Part shown: positions 2,489-17,941 of the stretch, one piece after another
Layout of the letters: each line of letters opens with the position of its first letter
How positions within the stretch are numbered: position 1 is the first letter of the stretch
IMG/VR virus record: IMGVR_UViG_3300007539_006868
Span: 1 to 21,164 of that record
Strand: one strand, 5' to 3'
Length of the DNA: 21,164 bases
Source of the DNA: a virus
Made by a program: the position numbers and the translations under genes
The notes under the pieces: generated by a model
Database searches by the model: none
What the model was told of the DNA's origin: nothing
What the model saw: the letters and a program-made list of their open reading frames with translations, nothing else

Positions 2489-2926
2489 TTATTTATTAAA
2501 AACGCTGTAAGCAACACTAGTAAATTGCGGGCCTAAGTCATATTTATTAATATTTTCTCTGTAAACCCATTCGTAATCTTTATGTTCTTGTGAAATTTGT
2601 AGATTTCCACTCCATTTTGTTATAACAAAAAAAGTTATTCTTTTTTGCGTTTCTAAAATATGACAATTTTCTGTACTTATTAATAAATTTGTTTCTTCTT
2701 TTATTTCTCTTTTAAGCGCTTCTTCTTTTGTTTCTGATTTTTCAATATGACCACCTGGTAAGTCCCATTCCCACGGTATTCTATCTGATTTATTGTTTTC
2801 ATTTCTTTTTAATAATAAACAAGTGTCATCATCTTTATTATATATAATTGCTTTAACAATATTGTTTTTACTTTCATTGGCTTCAGATAAATAAGAATTC
2901 CAAATTTTCATAATATTCTTCATCAT
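2489..2926 (-). CDS. Nudix hydrolase with capsid-targeting-like leader
   Basis: A 145-residue Nudix (MutT-like) protein. The Nudix box spans residues 59-81: GHIEKSE, seven residues, then REIKEET, matching G-x5-E-x7-REUxEE with Asn in place of the usual final Gly. The family cleaves nucleoside diphosphates linked to another moiety, using Mg2+; the substrate here is unknown. Residues 2-15 (MKNIMKIWNSYLSEA) closely match the N-terminus of the upstream 840-residue protein, so the leader is probably a targeting peptide rather than part of the enzyme. ATG at 2926 overlaps the upstream stop; ATG at 2923 is equally possible. Nudix assignment is firm, targeting is inference. Confidence 0.88.
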   Translation of the reverse strand: MMKNIMKIWNSYLSEANESKNNIVKAIIYNKDDDTCLLLKRNENNKSDRIPWEWDLPGGHIEKSETKEEALKREIKEETNLLISTENCHILETQKRITFFVITKWSGNLQISQEHKDYEWVYRENINKYDLGPQFTSVAYSVFNK

Positions 2927-5448
2927 TATATTTTAGTTAATGTATTAATTTTAATTTTATGAACCGTAACACCTGGAACATACTTAGAAGAATTTATCGA
3001 AGGTACTAGTATTCTATTAATATAGGTTATAGGTCGTATAGAATCAGAACGAAGGTGAAATTTAGTTTTAATTTCTAAAGTATCTTTTTTATCGTGCTTT
3101 TCGTAATCCGGGTATGAAATTACTGTTATTCCATCAATCGACCTAATTCTATTTAAACTTTCTTCAATACCACCAGAGGCATCTTTATTGATGTTTAAAA
3201 TTAAGTTTATCTGATACAATCTTGTTTCATGTTTTTTCTCTTCTTTGATTACCTCTTGTGAATTAAAATACTCTTTGAGATTACTAGAAACCATTTTTTG
3301 TAGAGGTTTGGTAATCATACTTATTTTTTTATCTAACTGAATTAAATATTCTCTTATTGTAAAAGCTGTGGCTGCAGCATCTTCTTCATCTTCATCTGGT
3401 TCTACAGAAAAAGAGAGCTTATAAAAAACATCAAAATTTCCTTGTGGTTTATATTCAGCGCGCGCTCCTATTTCTCCTCCAGGTGTGCCGGGACCGGTAT
3501 ATGTTCTATTCTCTGTATACAAATCAATATTTAAAACACCGACACTTAACGCTTCCGAAACAATTTCGTACGATTCAGAAGAGAGTTCATATGCAGATTT
3601 CCAATCAAATTCTTCTTCTGTACCAAATAGATTTTGTTGTTTAGCTTTTTCTTTTATATTGTTTGTCACACTACGCAATAACTCAATTAAATTTTCCGAA
3701 ACTTCTGCTTGTTTTGGATATGATAAAGGAATTATATAACGTTGTTGTGTGAGAAAATCCCGAGCCGGTTCAACACCTGGATTTGAAAAAATCTTTGTTA
3801 ATAGTTTGCCATCCAATATTGTATTGTTTATCATATAAGGCATTGTACCCAAAAAGAGAAGACCTGATTCTATATCAATATTGTCGTTATTTTTATCTAG
3901 AACAATCTCAAAATTTTTATATTCTACATCTTCTAGGATACCTTGTATAATTTTGTTAGTAGAACCTAGGATATATCCATTCCCTATAAGGTATTCTGTG
4001 GCCGTTTCAATATGAGAATCTAAATCTTTGATAGTATAGTCTAGAAAATCCTGCATTTCATCCTCAATATCTTCTATCACTTTTTCTGTTGATGTATCAA
4101 TATTAAAATCATCTTCAGTATAAGTTTTACTACCATAAAAAGTAAATATTATATATTTTCTTATCTTATCGTAATCTATATTTACAAAATCTGTGCTTAT
4201 TTCAATATAAGTATTAAATCCTATACTTCCAACAAATTCTGAAATTTTTCTCCAATTGCCAGAATCGCCTAAATCTTCTTTAATCGCCTCAGCTTGACTT
4301 TCTGAACATTTAATCTCCAAAGAAAAACTGGCATCAACCAATATTTCTGAATCACCATCATAATCAGTATTAAATGAAACCGCTCGATTAGAAAGTCTTC
4401 TACATATTGTTTCTACCTCTTCTGCAACTTCTGAAAAATTTCTTTTTCCTTCAACACCGGTTTGTTCAATTAGATAATTTATAAATTTTGGAAATTTCTC
4501 TGATTCACCCGAATACTGTCCTGTCTCTTCTATTTGTTTAATATTATGATAATTTATAAAATCTACTATATAATCCCAATACTCACTTTTCGGACAACTA
4601 TTTGAACTACCTTTTATCTGGTAAATAGTTTCTCCTCCCTTCGCTAGTGTTACAAAACGCTTAACACCATTAGGATACTCTTTTCCTCTTCTTCTTAATG
4701 AATATAAAGTTGTTCCTCTTTCGGTTCCGCAATGGTTCATTCTGCTAGCTTCTACAGGACAATGATCTGTTTCTGTATTGTACCAATAAAATCCGTCGTC
4801 ATATTCTTTTTCAATTTGTTCGTCTCTATCTGCTGCTTTTTCTATGTTTATATCTTTTACAAATAAACGAAGTTTTCTTTCAATTTGTTTGGGGTTTTCA
4901 TCTTTAAGTTCTTCTTCTTTATTTTGAATTAATGTTAAACCATCCGGATTGTTTTCAAAGAAAATAATGAATTCATCATAACTACCAAGAAAACTTTCTA
5001 CCGTATTTAAAAACGCTCCATTAATGTTATTAATAATGACACTTCTTTCTTTTTCTTCTAAACTCTGGTCTTTTCTTACAGTTTTAATAAATCTTTTATA
5101 AGCACCAATGTCATCTTTCATAGTTTTGTCTAGATTATTTACAATCTCTACTAAAGATGCTGCTACTTGTTCTTTAAAATCATTAGTACTTTTCGCTAAA
5201 TAAAAATTAATTTCTTTTTCTATTCCTTCTATGTAATATACAAGAGAAAACGACAATGTGTTTTTTGATTTTAAAAACCATTTACGAACAAGATATTCGA
5301 CTTGACTCTTGGATAAAGTTGTTGTGCTTTGCTTAAATTCATCAATTAAAAAATCTGGAATTCCTAGATTTTCTATTGCTTCTTCCAGAATTTCTTTTGT
5401 TTGGCTTTCTAGTAGAAAAGAATTCCAATTCTTAAAAAGATTTTTCAT
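2926..5448 (-). CDS. large phage protein with PcfJ-like HCG motif
   Basis: An 840-residue protein of unknown function. Residues 1-15 (MKNLFKNWNSFLLES) form the same short amphipathic leader as the next gene, resembling T4 capsid-targeting sequences. Around 220-297 there is a characteristic block: DDGFYWYN, SRMNHCGT with Cys240, TLYSLR, VTLAKG, IYQIKGSSNS, and YWDYIVDFI. This H-C-G...LYSLR...Q-x-KG-x2-N pattern resembles the PcfJ-like family found in phages and mobile elements, whose biochemistry I do not know. The rest is acidic, with a long helical N-terminal part and Glu/Asp-rich segments near 450 and 690. Start ATG 5448 has GGAG 10 nt upstream. Likely an internal virion protein injected with DNA; moderate support only. 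Confidence 0.8.
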   Translation of the reverse strand: MKNLFKNWNSFLLESQTKEILEEAIENLGIPDFLIDEFKQSTTTLSKSQVEYLVRKWFLKSKNTLSFSLVYYIEGIEKEINFYLAKSTNDFKEQVAASLVEIVNNLDKTMKDDIGAYKRFIKTVRKDQSLEEKERSVIINNINGAFLNTVESFLGSYDEFIIFFENNPDGLTLIQNKEEELKDENPKQIERKLRLFVKDINIEKAADRDEQIEKEYDDGFYWYNTETDHCPVEASRMNHCGTERGTTLYSLRRRGKEYPNGVKRFVTLAKGGETIYQIKGSSNSCPKSEYWDYIVDFINYHNIKQIEETGQYSGESEKFPKFINYLIEQTGVEGKRNFSEVAEEVETICRRLSNRAVSFNTDYDGDSEILVDASFSLEIKCSESQAEAIKEDLGDSGNWRKISEFVGSIGFNTYIEISTDFVNIDYDKIRKYIIFTFYGSKTYTEDDFNIDTSTEKVIEDIEDEMQDFLDYTIKDLDSHIETATEYLIGNGYILGSTNKIIQGILEDVEYKNFEIVLDKNNDNIDIESGLLFLGTMPYMINNTILDGKLLTKIFSNPGVEPARDFLTQQRYIIPLSYPKQAEVSENLIELLRSVTNNIKEKAKQQNLFGTEEEFDWKSAYELSSESYEIVSEALSVGVLNIDLYTENRTYTGPGTPGGEIGARAEYKPQGNFDVFYKLSFSVEPDEDEEDAAATAFTIREYLIQLDKKISMITKPLQKMVSSNLKEYFNSQEVIKEEKKHETRLYQINLILNINKDASGGIEESLNRIRSIDGITVISYPDYEKHDKKDTLEIKTKFHLRSDSIRPITYINRILVPSINSSKYVPGVTVHKIKINTLTKI

Positions 5449-6594: not shown

Positions 6595-6952
6595 TTATTC
6601 CTCCTACGTTTGTCATATTCTCGTATCTTGCTAGTTCCTCTAAACTTTTCTGTAATGTTTCTTCTAAATTCTGTTTTGTTTCTTCTTGTTGTGTTTTATT
6701 ATCTTCTACTTTATATTTGATATAACCAGATAAAATAGCATGAATATCTTCTAATCTTTGATCGATATCAAATAACGCTTTTCTCGTATCTTCAATTGAT
6801 TCTAATGCTGAAAGAGGTTTAGAATAGGATAAACTTCTTATTTCAGATAATTGTCCTAAAATATATGAAACTTCTTTTTGATCTGGCATTATTTTTGATA
6901 TCTCGCGTGGGATATTATCTAATTCTACTGTGTATTGCAACTTAACCTTCAT
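6587..6952 (-). CDS. hypothetical helical protein in the groEL operon
   Basis: A 121-residue acidic protein. It starts with a short beta-like segment (MKVKLQYTVELDNIP) and continues as predicted helices with long charged stretches (about 50-75 and 85-112, e.g. QQEETKQNLEETLQKSLEEL), likely coiled coil. The ATG at 6952 overlaps the groEL stop codon (ATGA), which indicates translational coupling. It is not a GroES: length, sequence and absence of the mobile-loop signature argue against it. Function unknown. Confidence 0.7.
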   Translation of the reverse strand: MKVKLQYTVELDNIPREISKIMPDQKEVSYILGQLSEIRSLSYSKPLSALESIEDTRKALFDIDQRLEDIHAILSGYIKYKVEDNKTQQEETKQNLEETLQKSLEELARYENMTNVGGIND

Positions 6953-8511
6953 TATTCGTCCTCAATAATAGCATAACCGGTTGTTAATAAAGTTCCTGCT
7001 GCCGATCCAGCATTTCTTAAAGCTGTAATAGTGACCTTAACAGGATCTATGATACCACTATCTAACATATTGACCATTCGAGAGTTTTTAAAGTCCCATC
7101 CTTTGTTTTTATTTGCCTTTTTAACGCGTTCATAAATAATATCTGGGCTTTCACCCGCGTTATGAGCCATCTGCTTTAAAGGAGCCGTAGCGGCTTCATA
7201 AACGATTGTTGTGTAGGTATTGGCCCAATATTTAGCAGATACTGGAACAGCGCGAATAAGAGCAACACCGCCACCTGGAACTATTCCTTCTTGTTGTGCT
7301 GCTTTTACGGCTTCAAGTGCATCTTCTATTCTATGCTTCTTCTCTATCATTTCCACTTCTGTTGCCGCACCAACACGAATAACTGCTACTCCAGAAGCTA
7401 GACGAGTAATTCTTTCTTGGATTCTATTACATTCGGTTAAATTATCTGTTTGTGTTAATTCTACCTTTAGTGATTCAATTTGCTTTTCAATTTCTTCATA
7501 TTGACCTTTCCCACCTACAACAGTAGTGGAATTTTTAACAGATTCAATCTTAACACAAGTGCCAAGATCTTTTAATTTAATATCTTTTAGTTTGGTACTA
7601 GAATTTTGAGTAATAAAAGATGCTCCTGTCGAAAGGCACAAATCCTTCAATATATTCCTGCGCTCTTCACCATAGCGAGGTGCCTTAATAGCAGCAACCT
7701 TTAATGTACCACGCATAGCGTTCATAATCAAGGCCGCTAAAGCCTGGTCTGCTACATCGGATGCGACGATAACCAAGGGTCTTTGTTCTCTTGCTACCAT
7801 TTCAAGAACAGGTAAAATCTCTTCTACCTTATCTATTTTAGAATCTGTAACTAAAATAAAAGGATTTTCATATACTACAGAACCTTTTCTTTCATCTGTT
7901 ATGAACGCATTAGCAATATAACCAGAATCAAACCTAAAACCTTCCATTAAATCTAATGTTGTTTCTATTGATCTTGCTTCTTCAATAGAAATAGAACCAT
8001 CCTTCCCCACAACATCAATGGCTTTAGCTACTAATTTACCAATTGTTTCATCATTATTTGCTGAAATAGATGCAATGTGAGCAATATCTTCTTCACTATG
8101 TATTGGTCTTGCTAATTCTTTTAGATTATGAATTAATATCTCAATACCATCATCTATGCCGCGTTTAACTTCAATTGGAGATGCGCCGGCTATAATATGA
8201 CGGTATGCTTCTCTTAAAATAGCTCTTGCTAAAACAGTTGCAGTTGTGGTGCCGTCGCCGGCTACACTATTCGTTTGTCGGCTTGCTTGTTTTATAATCT
8301 GTGCCGCGGCATTCTCAAATGGATCATCAAAATCAATAAATTCTGCAACTTGGACGCCATCCTTCGTAATGATAGGGCGCTTGCCCTTCTTTTGGATAAT
8401 AACATTTCTTCCCCTCGGTCCCAAAGTAGAAGCAACATTATCAGCCAATTTATCAACACCAGCAAGAACCTTCGCTTGCAACGAAGATCCTGCGTCATAC
8501 TTTTTAGTCAA
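6952..8511 (-). CDS. groEL: phage-encoded chaperonin GroEL (Cpn60)
   Basis: A 519-residue group I chaperonin, slightly shorter than bacterial GroEL (about 548). Family landmarks are all present: TLGPRGRNV near 30, ITKDGVQVA, the ATP site AGDGTTTATVLA, the IEDAL motif with the catalytic-type Asp, VPGGGVAL, and GIIDPVKV. It should assemble as an ATP-driven folding ring. The usual C-terminal Gly-Gly-Met tail is absent; the protein stops at AIIEDE. No co-chaperonin lies in the window, so it may use a host or distant phage GroES. The start is TTG at 8511 with AGAGGTG 4 nt upstream; no nearby ATG fits. It is first in an operon behind a consensus promoter. Confidence 0.95.
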   Translation of the reverse strand: MTKKYDAGSSLQAKVLAGVDKLADNVASTLGPRGRNVIIQKKGKRPIITKDGVQVAEFIDFDDPFENAAAQIIKQASRQTNSVAGDGTTTATVLARAILREAYRHIIAGASPIEVKRGIDDGIEILIHNLKELARPIHSEEDIAHIASISANNDETIGKLVAKAIDVVGKDGSISIEEARSIETTLDLMEGFRFDSGYIANAFITDERKGSVVYENPFILVTDSKIDKVEEILPVLEMVAREQRPLVIVASDVADQALAALIMNAMRGTLKVAAIKAPRYGEERRNILKDLCLSTGASFITQNSSTKLKDIKLKDLGTCVKIESVKNSTTVVGGKGQYEEIEKQIESLKVELTQTDNLTECNRIQERITRLASGVAVIRVGAATEVEMIEKKHRIEDALEAVKAAQQEGIVPGGGVALIRAVPVSAKYWANTYTTIVYEAATAPLKQMAHNAGESPDIIYERVKKANKNKGWDFKNSRMVNMLDSGIIDPVKVTITALRNAGSAAGTLLTTGYAIIEDE

Positions 8512-8571: not shown

Positions 8572-10314
8572 TTAGTTTGTTACATCGATTGGATCTTTCG
8601 ACAAGCGCTCTACAATATCATTTCCTTGTGTAATGGCTTCTTTATTGGCATTTATCGCTTCACCTCTATTTTCTGAAGTGAAGTAAAGACCTATATTTTC
8701 AGTAAATGATTTTGTCGTTTCTAAAAGTGCAACTAAATCATCTCCTAATTTTTCAATATAGATATCAACTAGTTCATTAATGTTTTCTTGTGATAAATTT
8801 AACGTACCGTAAACATCTGTTTTTACAAGAGAACGTAAATTATTCAGAGTATCTGTTCTAGATAAAGACCATTGTTTTCCTGTGGAGCCAGCGGCTTCCA
8901 TTAATAAGTTTTCTTCTATCATTGATCTTTTTTCATCTTCGTGAAAATTACCAAAATAAGAATATTTTTCTTGTACTCGTATTCTTCCACCTGGTACGGG
9001 TTTAACCCCACCAATTCCAGGTTTTAAAGTTGTAGCCTTTGGTTCTTCTTTTGGTTCTTCTTTCTTTGCTAATAATTTTGATTCTTCGAACCCAGCATTA
9101 AATTCATCTTGCAAGTCTTTAAGTAATTTATCTCTCTTAGGTGATAAGTTATTCCGTGCGTTTTCTTTACTTTCTGGCTCAAAATTAATTTCCTGGTCTT
9201 CGATCCAATCTTCCCATTGTGGACCAATTCCTTCAAAAGCATTTTTGCCAGCTAACTTAGCTAAGTTGAATAAATTCGCTTTATCAGCCTGTTTTTTCGC
9301 TAAATTAAATTGTTTTCTTTTAACGGTAGACAAAACTTGTTTTTCTGCTTTTTCAGCGAATTCACCTGATGTATCAAGACTGGTATAAAACATCCCTTTG
9401 CCTTTTGTATATCCTGGTGTTTCTTTCAAAATTTCAAACATTTTTAAGCGCCATTCTGGAGTGTCTTGCCAATTTTTAATGTGATTATCCAATTCTGTTG
9501 ATGCTTTACCAAGTAAATCGGTATTTGTCTTACCAGAATTAGTAAAAACTTCAATTATATTTTGTCTATTAATTACAAAATCATAAAGCAATAAGCCACT
9601 AACTGATTGATCACCTTCTCCTTCTTCTTTGAGAGCGATAAGATATTTAATTTCTGGTAACCCAGATCCGCCGCGAATAAAAAGATAATCTATAAGATTA
9701 GTAAAACTTCCATGAATAAGTGTATTCGGGCTAAGTAATTTTAAACTCGTTGGAATTGTTGTATCACTTAATTCTGAAAATGCTACGAAGTCTTCGATAG
9801 GCAAGGTACCGCCTACGCGACCGGTTATTTGTTTACCTCCCGTAAGAGCCGCCATAAAGCCTTCAAATATGAAGCCCGCTGAAGATTCGTTATAGTCGTT
9901 TAAACATGATTGCAGAGCTTCAATGATCTGCATTACATTTAAAAGTGTATTTACTTTGCCTCCGGGAGCTTTTTTTTCGGCACTTATCGGATTTAAAAAA
10001 CTGTTAACATGAGCAATTCTTGCTTTAATGTTTGGCTCTTTTGTAATAGAACTAAATATTCTATCGATTTCTTGACGAGATTGCGAACTTGGATCTCCCC
10101 ATGTTTCATTTGGAGTTAATTTAGGTAATGAGATGGAATAACTAAATCGTCCTCCTTTTTTAACATCTACTTTCTCTTCATTTAAAAGAGATGCTTTTGT
10201 ATTTTTTACTTCAGATAAAACTTCTCCAATTGTTTCTATGAGGAATTGTAGGTCCATCTTGTTTTCATTCTTATTTACTTGTTTCTCTACTAGCAAATCC
10301 CAGTCTATAGCCAT
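8572..10314 (-). CDS. paralogue A, possible nuclease-like phage protein
   Basis: A 580-residue protein, paralogous to the upstream gene. The first 36 residues (MAIDWDLLVEKQVNKNENKM...) are almost identical in the two, and both share SSAGF/SAAGF-x-FE-x-F-x-AL, G-x-QI, an acidic residue, P-x-SLKL and GSF-x-(N/D)L-(I/V)-(D/N)-(Y/D)L. Glu151, Asp175 and Ser190-Leu-Lys192 have the order and spacing of a PD-(D/E)xK nuclease core in which Ser replaces the acidic residue before x-K; this is only a hypothesis. A low-complexity linker rich in Lys/Glu/Pro (about 415-432) precedes the shared GIGGVKPVPGGR motif (435-445) and a further 135-residue C-terminal part with no recognised domain. Start ATG 10314 has AAGGAG 8 nt upstream. 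Function unknown. Confidence 0.8.
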   Translation of the reverse strand: MAIDWDLLVEKQVNKNENKMDLQFLIETIGEVLSEVKNTKASLLNEEKVDVKKGGRFSYSISLPKLTPNETWGDPSSQSRQEIDRIFSSITKEPNIKARIAHVNSFLNPISAEKKAPGGKVNTLLNVMQIIEALQSCLNDYNESSAGFIFEGFMAALTGGKQITGRVGGTLPIEDFVAFSELSDTTIPTSLKLLSPNTLIHGSFTNLIDYLFIRGGSGLPEIKYLIALKEEGEGDQSVSGLLLYDFVINRQNIIEVFTNSGKTNTDLLGKASTELDNHIKNWQDTPEWRLKMFEILKETPGYTKGKGMFYTSLDTSGEFAEKAEKQVLSTVKRKQFNLAKKQADKANLFNLAKLAGKNAFEGIGPQWEDWIEDQEINFEPESKENARNNLSPKRDKLLKDLQDEFNAGFEESKLLAKKEEPKEEPKATTLKPGIGGVKPVPGGRIRVQEKYSYFGNFHEDEKRSMIEENLLMEAAGSTGKQWSLSRTDTLNNLRSLVKTDVYGTLNLSQENINELVDIYIEKLGDDLVALLETTKSFTENIGLYFTSENRGEAINANKEAITQGNDIVERLSKDPIDVTN

Positions 10315-10348
10315 ATTAAATTCTCCTTTTTAATAAATAGTTTCTATT
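10220..10348. repeat. 129-bp near-identical direct repeat, copy 1
   Basis: Matches 12041-12169 with only three differences seen by eye. It covers the first ~31 codons of paralogue A plus its ribosome site and leader. The last codons and stop of paralogue B (10330-10348) lie inside this copy. Confidence 0.9.
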
Positions 10349-12135
10349 ATCTGTTCTTCGCTGAGACGGCCGCCTGGCTGTGGTCTCATTCCACCGGGGC
10401 CAGGCTCAAGTGTCTTCTTGTCGCTAGAGGTACCTGCAACTTGACGAACAGTTGCGGCTGCTTCTTCACCGGCTTCAGCACCTTCTTCTGCTTCAGATGT
10501 TTGCTTCAAGCCGTTTGCAAAGAATGAGTTTAACTTTTCAGTCATTTCTGCCATGTTGTCAAAAATATCATACACTCTATCCATAACTTCATTTTGTACT
10601 TTCTCTAAGAACTTTTGAACAACGGGGGCGCCGATCTTGATTTGAACGAAAGGCTTGCCGCCTGAATATTCGATTGCCTTCCCATTTGGAACTGAAAACT
10701 GCTTACTGGTAATGTAGCCATAAGAATTTTTCAATGCGATTGCTTTTGCCTCTGACGATAATCCCTCGTACCATTCAACAAGTTTTGGGTTTTCTCCGTA
10801 AATAAAGTTGATTTGCTTTATTGCTTCACCCCTCTTATCAGAAGTCGCTACTTCTTGAGCATAATATGTCTTAAAGTAAGAAACAATTTTATTATATACT
10901 TCAGTAACAATCCCGTCTTTATCACTAACTCCAAAAGTGTTCGCAATGCTTTTCTTGATATCTGTGGCTATGCCAAGCTTCTCTTTCGTGCCTCCGAGCC
11001 CCTTGGCTTCAATCCTGGCTAGGTAAATTTGCCCTATCTGGTTGAACATAGCATGAACTTGGTCTTCTTCAATGCCATTTACCTTCTCTATCTCATCAGA
11101 GTAGTTTTTAATTAGATAATCAACAAGGCCCCTAGCGATATCCTCTGAGGAGCCTTTTTCAGTTTTTGCGGGAAGGGTGCCAGCGAGATCTGGAGGGGCG
11201 CCCTGTTTGGTCTTATCCCAGTTTTCTAGCTCCAACATAAAGTCCTCAGAGGAACCGATAACCAAGCGGCCATGCTTACTCGCGCCGGCCAAAAGCCTGA
11301 AAATATTGTTTCTTGTAAAGTCAAATTGATAACAAGAAATCGTGCCTGACCTTTCAAGCGGAGACTGGCCAGGGGCTTGTTCCTCAAAGTTCTTCGTAGC
11401 TGCGATATATCTCATTGCACCACCGCCAAATTCTGGACTTGTGGCCCAAGCGGCCCATTCTCGCTGGTCTGCGTCAACAAGGTCGTTAACTAGATCTATG
11501 AACGAGCCGGCAACCTCAAGCCCTCCTTCACGATAAAGCTTCAAGCTGACGGGGACTCGCTTTCCGTCGAATTCTGCTGTTATGTCTGCAATGGTGCCTG
11601 CACCGGAAGCAGAAATCTGTCTACCATTTAATAAAGCGGACAAAAAGGCTTCGAAGTTGAAGCCGGCAGCCGATGCATTGAAGTTTGTAATCGCCATGGT
11701 AAGGGTTTTTATAAAAACAAGATAAGACATAACTTCTTGAATATACTCTTTCATGTTTTCTGTCTTTGGAATCTCGCCAAAACCTTGTTCCATTCTGGTC
11801 TGGACACTGTTCAATTTTTCTTGAACCGTTCCACCCTTGATATTGCGAAGCCAATCTTCCAAAAGATTTCTTTGAGTTCCCTTGACGCCATCATCATCGT
11901 TATTGGCCCAGCCAAGCTCAGAAACCGGGATAAGAGGGATCTGCCTAATTGTGTAGGTTCTCTTTTTTCCTTTCTTTTCTTCGTTCAAGGGGGTTCGAAG
12001 ATCAAGCTTAGGCCCCTTCAATTCGACCACCTCGGACAAGACTTCTCCAATTGTTTCCATGAGGAATTGTAGGTCCATCTTGTTTTCATTCTTATTTACT
12101 TGTTTCTCTACTAGTAAATCCCAGTCTATAGCCAT
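10330..12135 (-). CDS. paralogue B, possible nuclease-like phage protein
   Basis: A 601-residue relative of the next gene downstream. After the shared N-terminus it diverges, then shares the core near 155-215: SAAGFNFEAFLSAL with Glu162, Asp184, VPVSLKL with Ser197 and Lys199, and AGSFIDLVNDL. An Ala/Glu-rich linker near 545-570 leads to GPGGMRPQPGGR at 579-590, here almost at the C-terminus, whereas in paralogue A the same motif is followed by another 135 residues. Codon use is visibly richer in G/C at third positions than in paralogue A. The last codons (ETIY-stop) are read from the duplicated leader of gene A. Start ATG 12135 has AAGGAG 8 nt upstream. Possibly a virion or DNA-processing protein; unproven. 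Confidence 0.8.
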   Translation of the reverse strand: MAIDWDLLVEKQVNKNENKMDLQFLMETIGEVLSEVVELKGPKLDLRTPLNEEKKGKKRTYTIRQIPLIPVSELGWANNDDDGVKGTQRNLLEDWLRNIKGGTVQEKLNSVQTRMEQGFGEIPKTENMKEYIQEVMSYLVFIKTLTMAITNFNASAAGFNFEAFLSALLNGRQISASGAGTIADITAEFDGKRVPVSLKLYREGGLEVAGSFIDLVNDLVDADQREWAAWATSPEFGGGAMRYIAATKNFEEQAPGQSPLERSGTISCYQFDFTRNNIFRLLAGASKHGRLVIGSSEDFMLELENWDKTKQGAPPDLAGTLPAKTEKGSSEDIARGLVDYLIKNYSDEIEKVNGIEEDQVHAMFNQIGQIYLARIEAKGLGGTKEKLGIATDIKKSIANTFGVSDKDGIVTEVYNKIVSYFKTYYAQEVATSDKRGEAIKQINFIYGENPKLVEWYEGLSSEAKAIALKNSYGYITSKQFSVPNGKAIEYSGGKPFVQIKIGAPVVQKFLEKVQNEVMDRVYDIFDNMAEMTEKLNSFFANGLKQTSEAEEGAEAGEEAAATVRQVAGTSSDKKTLEPGPGGMRPQPGGRLSEEQIIETIY

Positions 12136-12169
12136 ATTAAATTCTCCTTTTTAATAAATGGTTTCTATT
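12041..12169. repeat. 129-bp near-identical direct repeat, copy 2
   Basis: Second copy of the block at 10220-10348, covering the start and leader of paralogue B. The stop codon of the preceding gene (TAG at 12165-12167) lies inside this copy, in a different frame from the one used in copy 1. Confidence 0.9.
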
Positions 12170-12714: not shown

Positions 12715-13380
12715 TTAAACAATAATATCGGCTAATCCTAGCTCTACTGCTTCTTCTGCATTTAGATAAACATTTACTTTTCTTTTAAGAATAGAATGAA
12801 GCTTTTGTTCTGTTAAATTTGTTTCATCACACAGGGCTTTAATATAAGTTTCTTGCATATATTTAATCTCTTTTAATTCGTTATCAAGTTGATGCATGGG
12901 TCCACCTGCTCCTCCGATAACAGAGTGTAACATAATTCTACAATATTTACCTATCTTTCTTTTTCCTTTTGTACCGGCTGCTAGAATTAAAGTTCCTGCT
13001 GACATAACTTTCCCAAGACCCAAAGTCTCGATTTCAACTTCTTCTCTTATTAAACGCATAGCGTCATACATCGAAAACATATCATCGGCAGAACCGCCAT
13101 TTGTGGATATTACTATCTCAATTGGTTTTACTGTTTCTATTAATTCATTACATTCTGGGTTTTCGGGTTCAGCAGGAACTAATTCTTTGGCTGTTTTTCT
13201 TAGATACCAAAGTGCTGCAATAAAATCTTTATTCATTTCTTCATTGATTTCTCCGATAACCGCAATTGTTCTTATTTCGTCATCCTTGTTTTGTGTCATC
13301 ATAATAAGATCATTTATTCCAATTTCCTCTTCTGAGTTTTGTACAATATTCTCTACTTTTTGTGTTTCTTCTGTAGACAT
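12715..13380 (-). CDS. ClpP-like serine peptidase, catalytic Asp replaced
   Basis: A 221-residue ClpP-family protein with a roughly 35-residue acidic extension. The family core is clear: IVISTNGGSADDMFSMYDAM (oxyanion region), GKVMSAGTLILAAG with nucleophile Ser127, CRIMLHSVIGG with His152, and a C-terminal NAEEAVELGLADIIV. Aligned by hand to Escherichia coli ClpP, the position of the catalytic Asp171 (ERDRFLS) is occupied by Asn203 in KVNVYLN. The enzyme may have weakened activity, use a different third residue, or act mainly in assembly; the phage ClpP-like class is often linked with prohead maturation. Start ATG 13380 has GGGAG 6 nt upstream, just after the membrane-protein gene. Confidence 0.88.
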   Translation of the reverse strand: MSTEETQKVENIVQNSEEEIGINDLIMMTQNKDDEIRTIAVIGEINEEMNKDFIAALWYLRKTAKELVPAEPENPECNELIETVKPIEIVISTNGGSADDMFSMYDAMRLIREEVEIETLGLGKVMSAGTLILAAGTKGKRKIGKYCRIMLHSVIGGAGGPMHQLDNELKEIKYMQETYIKALCDETNLTEQKLHSILKRKVNVYLNAEEAVELGLADIIV

Positions 13381-13829: not shown

Positions 13830-14354
13830 TTATGCACCCTTATCAATACGAGACATTATTCTTTCTACAATTGAATCAATATTTTTGTTTTTTCTAGATT
13901 TTCTGTTTAACCTATTCATAACCTTTCTGGTAACTGTTTCTAGAAGTGCTTCTTCGTCATCCATTTCGGCATCACCCATTTCGGCATCACCCATTTCGGC
14001 ATCACCCATTTCGGCATCACCCATTTCGGCATCATCCATTTCGGCATTAGCATCAGTATCAACCATTACATCTTCGCCGGTTATCTTCTCCAATGCATCC
14101 TCAAATGCGGCCATAAAATTATCAATTGAAATCATTCCACCAGAAGGTGCAATATCGGAGTCCATTTCGGGGGCGTCCATTTCGGGGGCGTCCATTTCGG
14201 GGGCGTCCATTTCGGGGGCGTCCATTTCATTGTCCATTTCGTCTTCTTCACTCATATAATTTTCATTAACGAAGTTATTAGTATAACGGTCGATGTTAGC
14301 ATACTTCATAAATTGACGTATTTGAGATTCGTTTAATAGATTCTTTTTTCTCAT
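13830..14354 (-). CDS. acidic Met-rich pentapeptide-repeat protein
   Basis: A 174-residue protein. The N-terminus (KNLLNESQIRQFMKYANI) is an amphipathic helix. Two separate acidic repeat blocks follow: four copies of MDAPE near 44-65 and five of MGDAE/MDDAE near 105-132, separated by a predicted helical segment (SIDNFMAAFEDALEKI). The C-terminus is basic and helical (RKVMNRLNRKSRKNKN, then IVERIMSRI). A basic tail after a strongly acidic, extended centre fits a scaffold or prohead-core protein of a tailed phage, but there is no direct evidence. Start ATG 14354 has AAGGAG 8 nt upstream. It is a single-gene unit ended by the terminator at 13782-13810. Confidence 0.82.
   Translation of the reverse strand: MRKKNLLNESQIRQFMKYANIDRYTNNFVNENYMSEEDEMDNEMDAPEMDAPEMDAPEMDAPEMDSDIAPSGGMISIDNFMAAFEDALEKITGEDVMVDTDANAEMDDAEMGDAEMGDAEMGDAEMGDAEMDDEEALLETVTRKVMNRLNRKSRKNKNIDSIVERIMSRIDKGA
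13961..14050. repeat. 15-bp tandem repeat array, six units
   Basis: Six units of CCATTTCGGCATCAC on the plus strand, the first four identical and the last two slightly altered. They encode the DAEMG pentapeptides of the gene at 13830-14354. Confidence 0.95.
14162..14243. repeat. 15-bp tandem repeat array, four units plus partials
   Basis: Four identical units of CCATTTCGGGGGCGT (14162-14221), then two degenerate CCATTTC words. They encode the DAPEM pentapeptides. The core CCATTTCGG is shared with the array at 13961-14050, which suggests both grew from one ancestral unit. Confidence 0.95.
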
Positions 14355-14906: not shown

Positions 14907-15932
14907 TTAACTCATTTTAATGTGTGTATTACTTTCGTGTTGTCCGGAAATGGTTTGTCTAATAAAGGTAGAATTACTTTGAAGTTCATTAATACTTTTT
15001 GCTCCTGAATAAGATAAACCGCTATGAATTCCAACCTTAAGATTTTTTAATATTTCAGTTACTCTACCCTTATAAGGTACATAATGAGTAATTCCTTCTA
15101 TTGAAGAAGTTTTTCCTCGCCAATCAATCTGTGCCTCTACTGAAGCCATGCCACGGTAAATCTTCTTTTTCTTATCATAGAAATTTATAATTTCTCCTGG
15201 TGTTTCTTCTGTTCCTGATAATAAAGAACCAATCATTACAAAATCGGCGCCTGCCGCCAAAGCCTTTACAATATCACCACTATTACGAATTCCACCATCA
15301 GCTATTATTGAAACATCTCTGTCCGTTTTAGAACATTCCATTAACGAATGTAATGTTGGTACGCCATGCCCAGTTTGAATTCTGGTAGAACAGATGCTTC
15401 CTCCACCAATTCCAACCCGAACAGAATTCGCTCCCCAATCTGCTAAATCGTTTAGACCTTCTAATGTTGCGACATTTCCAGCCATAATATGTATATCATT
15501 ACCATAAACATTTCTCAAGTTTTCTAGTGCTTGCTTAACTAGAATATGGTGGCCATGAGCTACATCTATACATAGAAATGAAGCGCCGCAGTTTAAACAT
15601 TCTTCGGCTCGTTCTAAATAATCTCCTGAAACACCTATTGCCGCTCCTGGTCCTCTTGGACTAGTCGATGCGTATGCTAATGCTACTTCTTCGGCTTGTT
15701 GTTCAATAGTATTATAACGATGAATAATACCACTCCCACCAAATTTACTAATTTCTCTAAACATCTTCCACTCTGTAATCGTATCCATAGGGGATGAAAT
15801 AACAGGAAATGAAAATTTTCCTACTTTATCTAATGTTTGTGAAATTAATATATCAGTATTTCTAGATATAATACTTGAATATTTTGGTACCAATAAAACA
15901 TCATCATAACTCAAAGCTGTGGTAATACTCAT
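14907..15932 (-). CDS. IMP dehydrogenase / GMP reductase family enzyme, no CBS domains
   Basis: A 341-residue TIM-barrel enzyme. Landmarks are LSYDDVLLVPKYS near 8, SSPMDTITE near 47, IDVAHGH, MAGNVAT, GIGGGSICSTR with catalytic Cys181 and Thr183, the phosphate-binding ADGGIR at 211, and a C-terminal QHESNTHI. The N- and C-termini look like IMPDH. However, CBS domains are absent (length equals GMP reductase), the Cys loop continues TGHGVP, closer to GMPR, and the flap (RGMASVEAQIDW...) is short and lacks the IMPDH Arg-Tyr pair. It acts either IMP to XMP or GMP to IMP; I lean slightly to reductase. The usual Pro in GIGPGS is Gly177. Neighbours are purine and dUTP enzymes. Confidence 0.88.
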   Translation of the reverse strand: MSITTALSYDDVLLVPKYSSIISRNTDILISQTLDKVGKFSFPVISSPMDTITEWKMFREISKFGGSGIIHRYNTIEQQAEEVALAYASTSPRGPGAAIGVSGDYLERAEECLNCGASFLCIDVAHGHHILVKQALENLRNVYGNDIHIMAGNVATLEGLNDLADWGANSVRVGIGGGSICSTRIQTGHGVPTLHSLMECSKTDRDVSIIADGGIRNSGDIVKALAAGADFVMIGSLLSGTEETPGEIINFYDKKKKIYRGMASVEAQIDWRGKTSSIEGITHYVPYKGRVTEILKNLKVGIHSGLSYSGAKSINELQSNSTFIRQTISGQHESNTHIKMS

Positions 15933-16951: not shown

Positions 16952-17941
16952 TTATATAAATTCTGGGCTTCTAGAAAAGAAAATCTTTTCTTTTTTAAAA
17001 AAGTTACTTATGTCCTCTTCAAACTTATTTGAATTGGTATAAGTTTTTGTACTTTCTGGAAACATGATTTTCCAAAAATCTAACTGTTCTAAAATATCTA
17101 CTTTATTTAGAACTATATGCGTAACTCCGTTAATATTCACAGAACGCTTGAGTTTATTTAAATCAAGCCAATTACATTGTCTCTTTCTTCCAGTTGTCGC
17201 ACCAAACTCTTTACCAAGTTCTTGAATCTTATTAAAAATTTCTTTTTTTGGCTGAAATTGCTTTGCTCCAACATAAGTTTCATATGCTTTCGCTACTCCC
17301 CAAATATTCCTAACGCTATTTGGAGGAATACCATTTAACATGGCGCCGGCTGTAGTACAATGTGAAGAAGTTACAAAAGGATAATCGCCCCAATCAATAT
17401 CAAGTTCAAAACCTTGCGCTCCTTCGAAAAGCGCTTCGACATTACCATTATTATGCATTTCCTCGTAAAAATCAATAAGGAAGGGCTTTAAAGTATCAAA
17501 TTGTTCTGCTCTCATGCCGGTTCTATGATATTTATCCGTATATGCTGGTCCATTTCCTGTCTTTGTAGTTCCTATTTTAACATCGGTACTATCTTCTGTC
17601 AAGTGCTTTTCTTGGACAATATGAGCGTTCTTAGAAATATAAATTAAGCCATCTACATCAATACCATTAACCCAAAGTTCTTCTATTTCTGTTAGAAATT
17701 TATCAATATTAATTACGCATCCAGGTCCAATAATAGACTTTATTCCAAAGAAAACTCCACTTGGAATAAGATGAGTTACAAATTTCTTACCATTATGATA
17801 GATAGTGTGTCCGGCATTTCCACCACCATTAAATCTTACACAATGTGTATATTTACCATTTTGTAATAGATGATGCGTTACCTTGCCTTTACCCTCATCT
17901 CCAGACTGTAATCCGACCACTATATCAACTATTAGACTCAC
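16952..17941 (-). CDS. purA: adenylosuccinate synthetase, short archaeal-length form
   Basis: A 329-residue PurA-family enzyme joining IMP and aspartate with GTP to make adenylosuccinate, the committed step to AMP. Visible landmarks are GLQSGDEGKGK with catalytic Asp15, GNAGHT with His45, LIPSGVF, EGAQGFELDID, TTAGAM, KAYETYVGA, and GATTGRKRQCNWLDL. It is about 100 residues shorter than bacterial PurA and near archaeal length. The Asp that phage PurZ enzymes replace with a small residue is kept here, so IMP rather than dGMP is the expected substrate. Start is GTG at 17941 with GGAGG upstream, overlapping the UvdE stop (GTGA). Confidence 0.92.
   Translation of the reverse strand: MSLIVDIVVGLQSGDEGKGKVTHHLLQNGKYTHCVRFNGGGNAGHTIYHNGKKFVTHLIPSGVFFGIKSIIGPGCVINIDKFLTEIEELWVNGIDVDGLIYISKNAHIVQEKHLTEDSTDVKIGTTKTGNGPAYTDKYHRTGMRAEQFDTLKPFLIDFYEEMHNNGNVEALFEGAQGFELDIDWGDYPFVTSSHCTTAGAMLNGIPPNSVRNIWGVAKAYETYVGAKQFQPKKEIFNKIQELGKEFGATTGRKRQCNWLDLNKLKRSVNINGVTHIVLNKVDILEQLDFWKIMFPESTKTYTNSNKFEEDISNFFKKEKIFFSRSPEFI

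Follow-up and report, generated by a model that had tools for sequence, protein, structure and literature searches.

Two adjacent genes, P0001 and P0002, in IMG/VR virus record IMGVR_UViG_3300007539_006868 raise the question of what their products do and where they act. The stretch analyzed comprises 21,164 nucleotides (positions 1 to 21,164 of the record) and is referred to as the window in the following. P0001 (8572..10314, 580 aa) and P0002 (10330..12135, 601 aa) are open reading frames on the minus strand. An earlier, sequence-only reading of the window described them as paralogues with identical N-termini, a common PGGR motif and a possibly degenerate PD-(D/E)xK core in which Ser replaces an acid, and suggested that they may be a novel virion-delivered or DNA-processing pair. 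From a structural model and the conservation of 128 family members, we conclude that the core of both proteins very probably has the restriction-nuclease fold. Our wider interpretation, i.e., a pair of PD-(D/E)xK-type DNA-processing enzymes with an exchangeable body that reach the phage head via their leader, is proposed tentatively, as a possibility that we do not yet call probable.

Conserved site and predicted fold of the core

The residues singled out earlier are found where they had been placed. P0001 has Glu151 (motif I, 9862..9864), Asp175 (motif II, 9790..9792) and Ser190-Leu191-Lys192 (motif III SxK, 9739..9747), and P0002 has Glu162 (11650..11652), Asp184 (11584..11586) and Ser197-Leu198-Lys199 (11539..11547), all on the minus strand. 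The spacings are exact as well, with 24 and 22 residues from Glu to Asp and 15 and 13 from Asp to Ser, and the P-x-SLKL strand reads PTSLKL in P0001 and PVSLKL in P0002. Scans of IMG/VR contigs yielded 129, 132 and 94 relatives, overlapping between scans. From at most 80 relatives per scan we obtained 239 frames, 149 of them distinct, which gave 128 non-redundant members at 90% identity. Glu151, Asp175, Ser190 and Lys192 (P0001 numbering) are invariant in all 128. They belong to 14 invariant alignment positions, i.e., P64, G147, F148, F150, E151, F153, I173, D175, S190, L191, K192, G202, S203 and Y224, among which the only charged residues are Glu, Asp and Lys. Because some search seeds had included the FE or D motif, which biases these two positions and leaves Ser and Lys unaffected, the search was redone with the C-terminal region alone. 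It found 89 loci, ten of them new by their C-terminal sequence; 88 had a near-full frame, and E..D..SxK was present in 88 of 88.

Ser190 is encoded by TCN in 74 members and by AGY in 54. Both codon families occur in each of the two body types described below (64/6 and 10/48), and a switch between them takes at least two base changes; we hence conclude that the serine itself is kept by selection. A site in decay would not be expected to behave in this way, and the term degenerate finds no support in a core that is so strictly conserved.

An AlphaFold2 (AF2) model was computed for P0001 residues 52–266 (9517..10161, minus strand), which span a helical part and the restriction-nuclease-like core, from an alignment of 128 core sequences; the aligned core of P0002 lies at 11263..11967 (minus strand). 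The model reached a predicted local distance difference test (pLDDT) score of 83.4 and a predicted template modeling (pTM) score of 0.79. A full-length model from seven sequences (pLDDT 36) was of no use. In the core model, helices are followed by helix 92–106, a short bridge region, strand 125–129, strand 134–143, a helix and two further strands; the first short core strand is visible as isolated bridge residues only. In model numbering, Glu151 is Glu100 within helix 92–106, Asp175 is Asp124 directly before strand 125–129, and Ser190 and Lys192 are Ser139 and Lys141 on strand 134–143. The predicted topology is thus restriction-nuclease-like, in agreement with the fold suspected before: the first core helix carries Glu, Asp stands where the second strand begins, and SxK belongs to the third.

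The nearest PDB neighbors of the model are nucleases of the PD-(D/E)xK fold, each by a weak match. Among the 50 Foldseek matches listed are PvuII, SwaI, DpnI, Hjc, HincII, EcoRV, FAN1, SPARDA, tRNA-splicing endonucleases and one Wolbachia CinA/CinB chain; we take SPARDA, FAN1, CinB and the splicing endonucleases to have the same nuclease fold. With VIA, SwaI was the best neighbor (Z 5.7, 131 positions aligned, root-mean-square deviation (rmsd) 4.0), along with a tRNA-intron endonuclease (Z 5.4, 122 aligned, rmsd 5.0), 3ndh (Z 5.2, 120 aligned, rmsd 3.7), Eco15I (Z 5.2, 106 aligned, rmsd 7.0) and Hjc (Z 4.8, 95 aligned, rmsd 3.2). The Hjc alignments place model residues 94–208 on 3–103 of 2wj0 and 92–210 on 1–100 of 1gef. 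Judged from these end points, an offset of 91 would put Glu100 on E9 and Asp124 on D33 of Hjc, and Ser139 and Lys141 would fall on E46 and K48 after a shift of two residues (Hjc residues as named in the accessible part of PMC1913061).

Sequence comparison led to two distant homologues in giant phages. In LR756502.1, a 642 kb uncultured phage, the same place was matched by family member L007 (tblastn, E 3) and by the A4 consensus (E 0.4), and this homologue then scored E 1.2e-11 with the A4 profile, so that we regard the weak L007 match as credible. LR745206.1 (635 kb) carries a copy that is 50% identical to it. Both retain the Glu and the Asp, and their motif III reads YQIKLYK and FQIKLYK, respectively, i.e., Gln-x-Lys, which we met in these two homologues only. 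The acid of motif III is often replaced by Asn or Gln, and in Eco15I, which has QIK, each of E49, D69, Q79 and K81 was needed for activity, according to the available text of PMC11347163. Since the homologues have QxK and QIK is essential in Eco15I, we conclude that the Ser family shares ancestry with proteins that have a recognized active site.

Several results count against a nuclease assignment. P0001 and P0002 have no Pfam, PHROGs or NCBIfam family and no convincing PADLOC match. The best Foldseek match to the PDB, PvuII, has an E value of 0.049 and none is at or below 0.001, which is not significant alone, and all VIA Z scores stay below 8, a level that the tool calls common. Three apparently unrelated Rep15 entries reach Z 4.2–4.3. 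A mixed α/β domain without nuclease fold, whose resemblance arose by chance, would account for such values; as the four conserved residues lie on the expected secondary structure elements, nucleases make up nearly all of the closest folds and distant homologues have QxK, we judge it very improbable. Moreover, motif III holds neither the acid nor the known Asn or Gln substitute, and Ser stands there in 128 of 128. Because Ser replaces this acid, the window proteins are classed as a variant of the nuclease fold and not as canonical PD-(D/E)xK members. The PD-(D/E)xK fold also has non-nuclease uses, and a Ser in place of a metal-binding acid throughout the family could mark lost activity in a catalytically dead protein that binds only DNA or a protein partner. 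We consider this improbable in view of the invariant Lys, Glu and Asp, the Ser maintained across codon families and the QxK homologues that retain the rest of the site. A MspI row for one member (E 0.053) was weak and was not used as evidence, and the family profile gave nothing credible among PDB sequences.

We therefore favor, among these readings, an enzyme whose active site is formed by Glu on helix 1, Asp on strand 2 and Ser-x-Lys on strand 3, the last corresponding, with Ser in place of Gln, to the QxK site in the distant homologues. In such a site the metal would be bound by Glu and Asp and a water molecule oriented by Lys, with Ser, or the backbone there, as the remaining component. 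That the predicted nucleases P0001 and P0002 cut DNA is somewhat more likely than not.

Two body types behind a shared leader

A typical locus has one family copy between a ClpP-like protease gene, found upstream of 125 of the 128 members, and GroEL, found downstream of 112. In the window these landmarks lie at 12715..13380 (ClpP-like; PF00574, 2e-30; PHROG 94 head maturation protease, 2e-23) and 6952..8511 (GroEL), both on the minus strand. The window is the only one among related loci, within the DNA fetched, to have two members at one locus; a second member distant in the same genome was seen in one case, G006.

The cores fall into two types without mixtures, 70 of the 128 being SLKLL/FIFEG-like and 58 SLKLY/FNFEA-like. 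P0001 is an L/I-type member (FIFEGF..SLKLL) and P0002 a Y/N-type member (FNFEAF..SLKLY). Their description as paralogues holds insofar as they belong to the same family; with cores only 23% identical, they represent two old subfamilies and did not arise by recent duplication, and only their leader is a recent copy. Core type changes once on the core tree. On the ClpP tree (123 rows) it changes at least 21 times, compared with a mean of 41 and a minimum of 35 in 100 shuffles, and on the GroEL tree (107 rows) at least 23 times (shuffled mean 36, minimum 29). The FastTree trees were used without a support filter, so these counts are approximate; the two members of the window were left out.

The first 32 residues are common across types. 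Local scores of at least 50 were obtained for 278 of 4060 cross-type leader pairs and for none of 1500 shuffled comparisons, which reached 44 at most. Among 105 members, the leader varies more closely with ClpP (rank partial 0.38, permutation maximum 0.11) than with the core (0.12), and core and C-terminal region vary together (0.86; core versus ClpP 0.10). From the type changes on the ClpP and GroEL trees and from the leader similarity that tracks ClpP, the body, i.e., the core together with the C-terminal helical region, seems to have been exchanged between the two old types, with a leader of about 30 residues staying with the phage lineage.

In the window, the genes flanking P0001 resemble those of the related loci L003 and L004 (86–87% for a neighbor that we take by eye from its sequence to be DnaE, 87% for P0002, 76% for GroEL), and the nearest relative of P0001 itself is L005 with 44%. 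At L003 (10250–11014) and L004 (12018–12782), P0001's place between the P0002 orthologue and GroEL is taken by another frame, by its motif presumably GIY-YIG endonuclease-like. A contig chimera was rejected, since on both flanks of P0001 the genes have L003/L004 and L092/L093 as their closest relatives or among the closest. The N-termini of P0001 and P0002, called identical before, are nearly so, with 35 of the first 36 residues the same and 94% DNA identity over 107 nucleotides. This similarity extends upstream through the ribosome-binding region. The leader copy of P0001, i.e., about 34 upstream nucleotides with this region plus the first 107 of the gene, covers 10208..10348 (minus strand) and overlaps the 3' end of P0002; the same unit stands at P0002 at 12029..12169 (minus strand). 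The leader DNA of the P0002 orthologue in L003 is visibly more diverged from that of P0002 than P0001's is. We therefore conclude that the leader was copied recently, either onto an acquired P0001 body or together with it. In the course of events that we propose, a second body type would have been inserted beside the resident one, bearing a copy of the resident leader. The PGGR motif does occur once in each protein, but at different places (residue 441 of 580 in P0001, 587 of 601 in P0002) and in tails whose DNA aligns in patches only, and this link is hence given little weight.

Phage context and candidate head delivery

All ten long related records (159–193 kb) carry a T4-type gp23, a terminase and a gp21-type protease (PF03420), and we therefore assign the family to uncultured T4-like myoviruses. 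The gp21-type protease in these ten records also ruled out the ClpP-like gene as sole head protease; five of them (G001, G004, G005, G009, G010) have a second ClpP-like gene elsewhere. Single-sequence tblastn searches with P0001, P0002, L006 and L020 gave no match in 50,697 phage records. One genome each of 84,980 bacterial and archaeal species yielded 66 candidates and no true relative, and the family was not met in literature searches by topic, in which papers are not searchable by sequence.

A short N-terminal segment kept on exchanged bodies invites comparison with head-targeting sequences. T4 internal proteins enter the head via N-terminal propeptides of 10–19 residues, and EcoRI or staphylococcal nuclease fused to IPIII or its targeting sequence was packaged and delivered, as described in the available part of PMC9026906. 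The SPN3US ejection proteins gp53 and gp54 are identical in their first 15 residues and 34% identical overall, which the authors liken to T4 targeting sequences (PMC5694885, accessible text). In our family, the first 30 residues contain 268 cleavage-like [LIF]xE sites in 124 of 128 members, compared with a mean of 114 and a maximum of 143 after shuffling, an enrichment to which helix composition could contribute. In G006 the second family member, a protein of 337 aa, begins with a W[RK].[FY]L.E tag; 5 of 173 N-termini fit this pattern, compared with 0 of 1521 internal stretches. The homologue in LR756502.1 opens with a tag that, over the part of this genome read, is present at 6 of 31 N-termini and absent from all 181 internal stretches. 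In LR745206.1 the tag occurs at 5 of 24 N-termini, one of them in a doubtful frame, and in 1 of 186 internal stretches, and the homologue itself fails the pattern.

Some other N-termini look similar. A run of frames in G006 (C1:10396–18800, L254) has ENWRRFINE-type N-termini on varied bodies, NUDIX-like proteins and the second family member among them, and is a candidate packaged set. In the window, a NUDIX protein (2489–2926) and an 840-aa protein without known family (2926–5448) start with NWNSFLLES and IWNSYLSEA, respectively, which resemble a capsid-targeting tag. Internal head proteins of the phiKZ type were considered after weak Pfam rows and dropped; phiKZ_IP (PF12699) had any match in one of 12 records, none over the cut-off and none at the family gene.

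Other observations speak against head delivery. In G003 and G004 the family gene lies about 45 kb from gp23, outside the head module, and it stands beside replication and nucleotide genes. Both tag patterns were written after viewing the sequences, and the leader of the window pair differs from the W..FL.E tag of the NUDIX and 840-aa proteins. An intracellular nuclease of replication, recombination or repair, e.g., a junction resolvase, would fit the neighbors DnaE, UvdE, dUTPase, purine genes, ClpP and GroEL, the distance from the head genes and Hjc among the structural neighbors; it would never be packaged, and its leader would be a conserved partner-binding helix. Free exchange of the body behind a retained leader is unlike a core replication enzyme, however, and a paralogue and a distant homologue bear N-terminal tags common within their genomes. 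We regard such a non-packaged enzyme as rather unlikely. Head delivery of P0001 and P0002, as suggested by these comparisons of N-termini, is in our view a serious candidate that falls somewhat short of probable.

If the proteins are delivered, the leader would most likely be a propeptide that, in the manner of the T4 capsid-targeting sequences, brings them into the phage head and is cleaved off. The enzyme might then enter the cell together with the phage DNA and attack the DNA of the host or of competitors. Competition between phages by means of an endonuclease is the subject of PMC11620839, going by its accessible part. The most specific form of this proposal is a T4-like leader-plus-body system, in which a head-delivered Ser-x-Lys nuclease of two body types, traded at one locus behind a lineage-specific loading leader, is used against host defense or competing phages and the window phage loads both types. 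It is unlikely to be right in all its parts. If active, the enzymes would extend the known motif variation of PD-(D/E)xK proteins by a strictly conserved Ser-x-Lys site and would give a function to an abundant, unnamed gene of uncultured T4-like phages. Body swapping behind a fixed leader is a testable model for how large phages change the enzymes they carry into cells.

The window has further features. An acidic, repeat-rich protein without family (13830–14354; DAPEM/GDAEM repeats, start LLNESxIRxFMxxANI) is conserved in 81 clustered loci, where it lies upstream of ClpP. Positions 14907–15932 hold an IMP dehydrogenase/GMP reductase-like gene and 16952–17941 an adenylosuccinate synthase-like gene (best NCBIfam PRK01117, 9e-85; PurZ model, 3e-37; both under cut-off). 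At the contig end (5–142), two head-to-tail copies of a 69-nucleotide unit are 86% alike, and the array may run on.

Comparison with known systems

The BisI family enzymes Eco15I and NhoI, PD-QXK restriction endonucleases, share with the window family the order of Glu (on a helix), Asp and motif III, and their QIK is letter for letter that of the giant-phage homologues. The window family differs by its Ser in place of Gln, and it has no sequence match to these enzymes, no known modification specificity, and an extra N-terminal helical part, a C-terminal helical region and a leader. R.SwaI and PvuII are the best VIA and Foldseek neighbors, respectively, by weak matches; by eye, the open reading frames of the window did not seem to include a partner methyltransferase. 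The archaeal Holliday junction resolvase Hjc resembles the model in the placement of Glu and Asp derived from the VIA ranges, but it has E46-x-K48 at motif III, where the two-residue shift would be required, comprises only about 120 residues and shows no sequence match. For the leader, the closest parallels are the T4 internal proteins and SPN3US gp53/gp54, as far as the available texts describe them (PMC9026906, PMC5694885). The window pair, a candidate for delivery, has a leader unlike the tag of other window proteins; it shares with these known systems a short, (nearly) identical N-terminal segment on diverged bodies, and the leaders of its family hold Glu-containing, cleavage-like sites.

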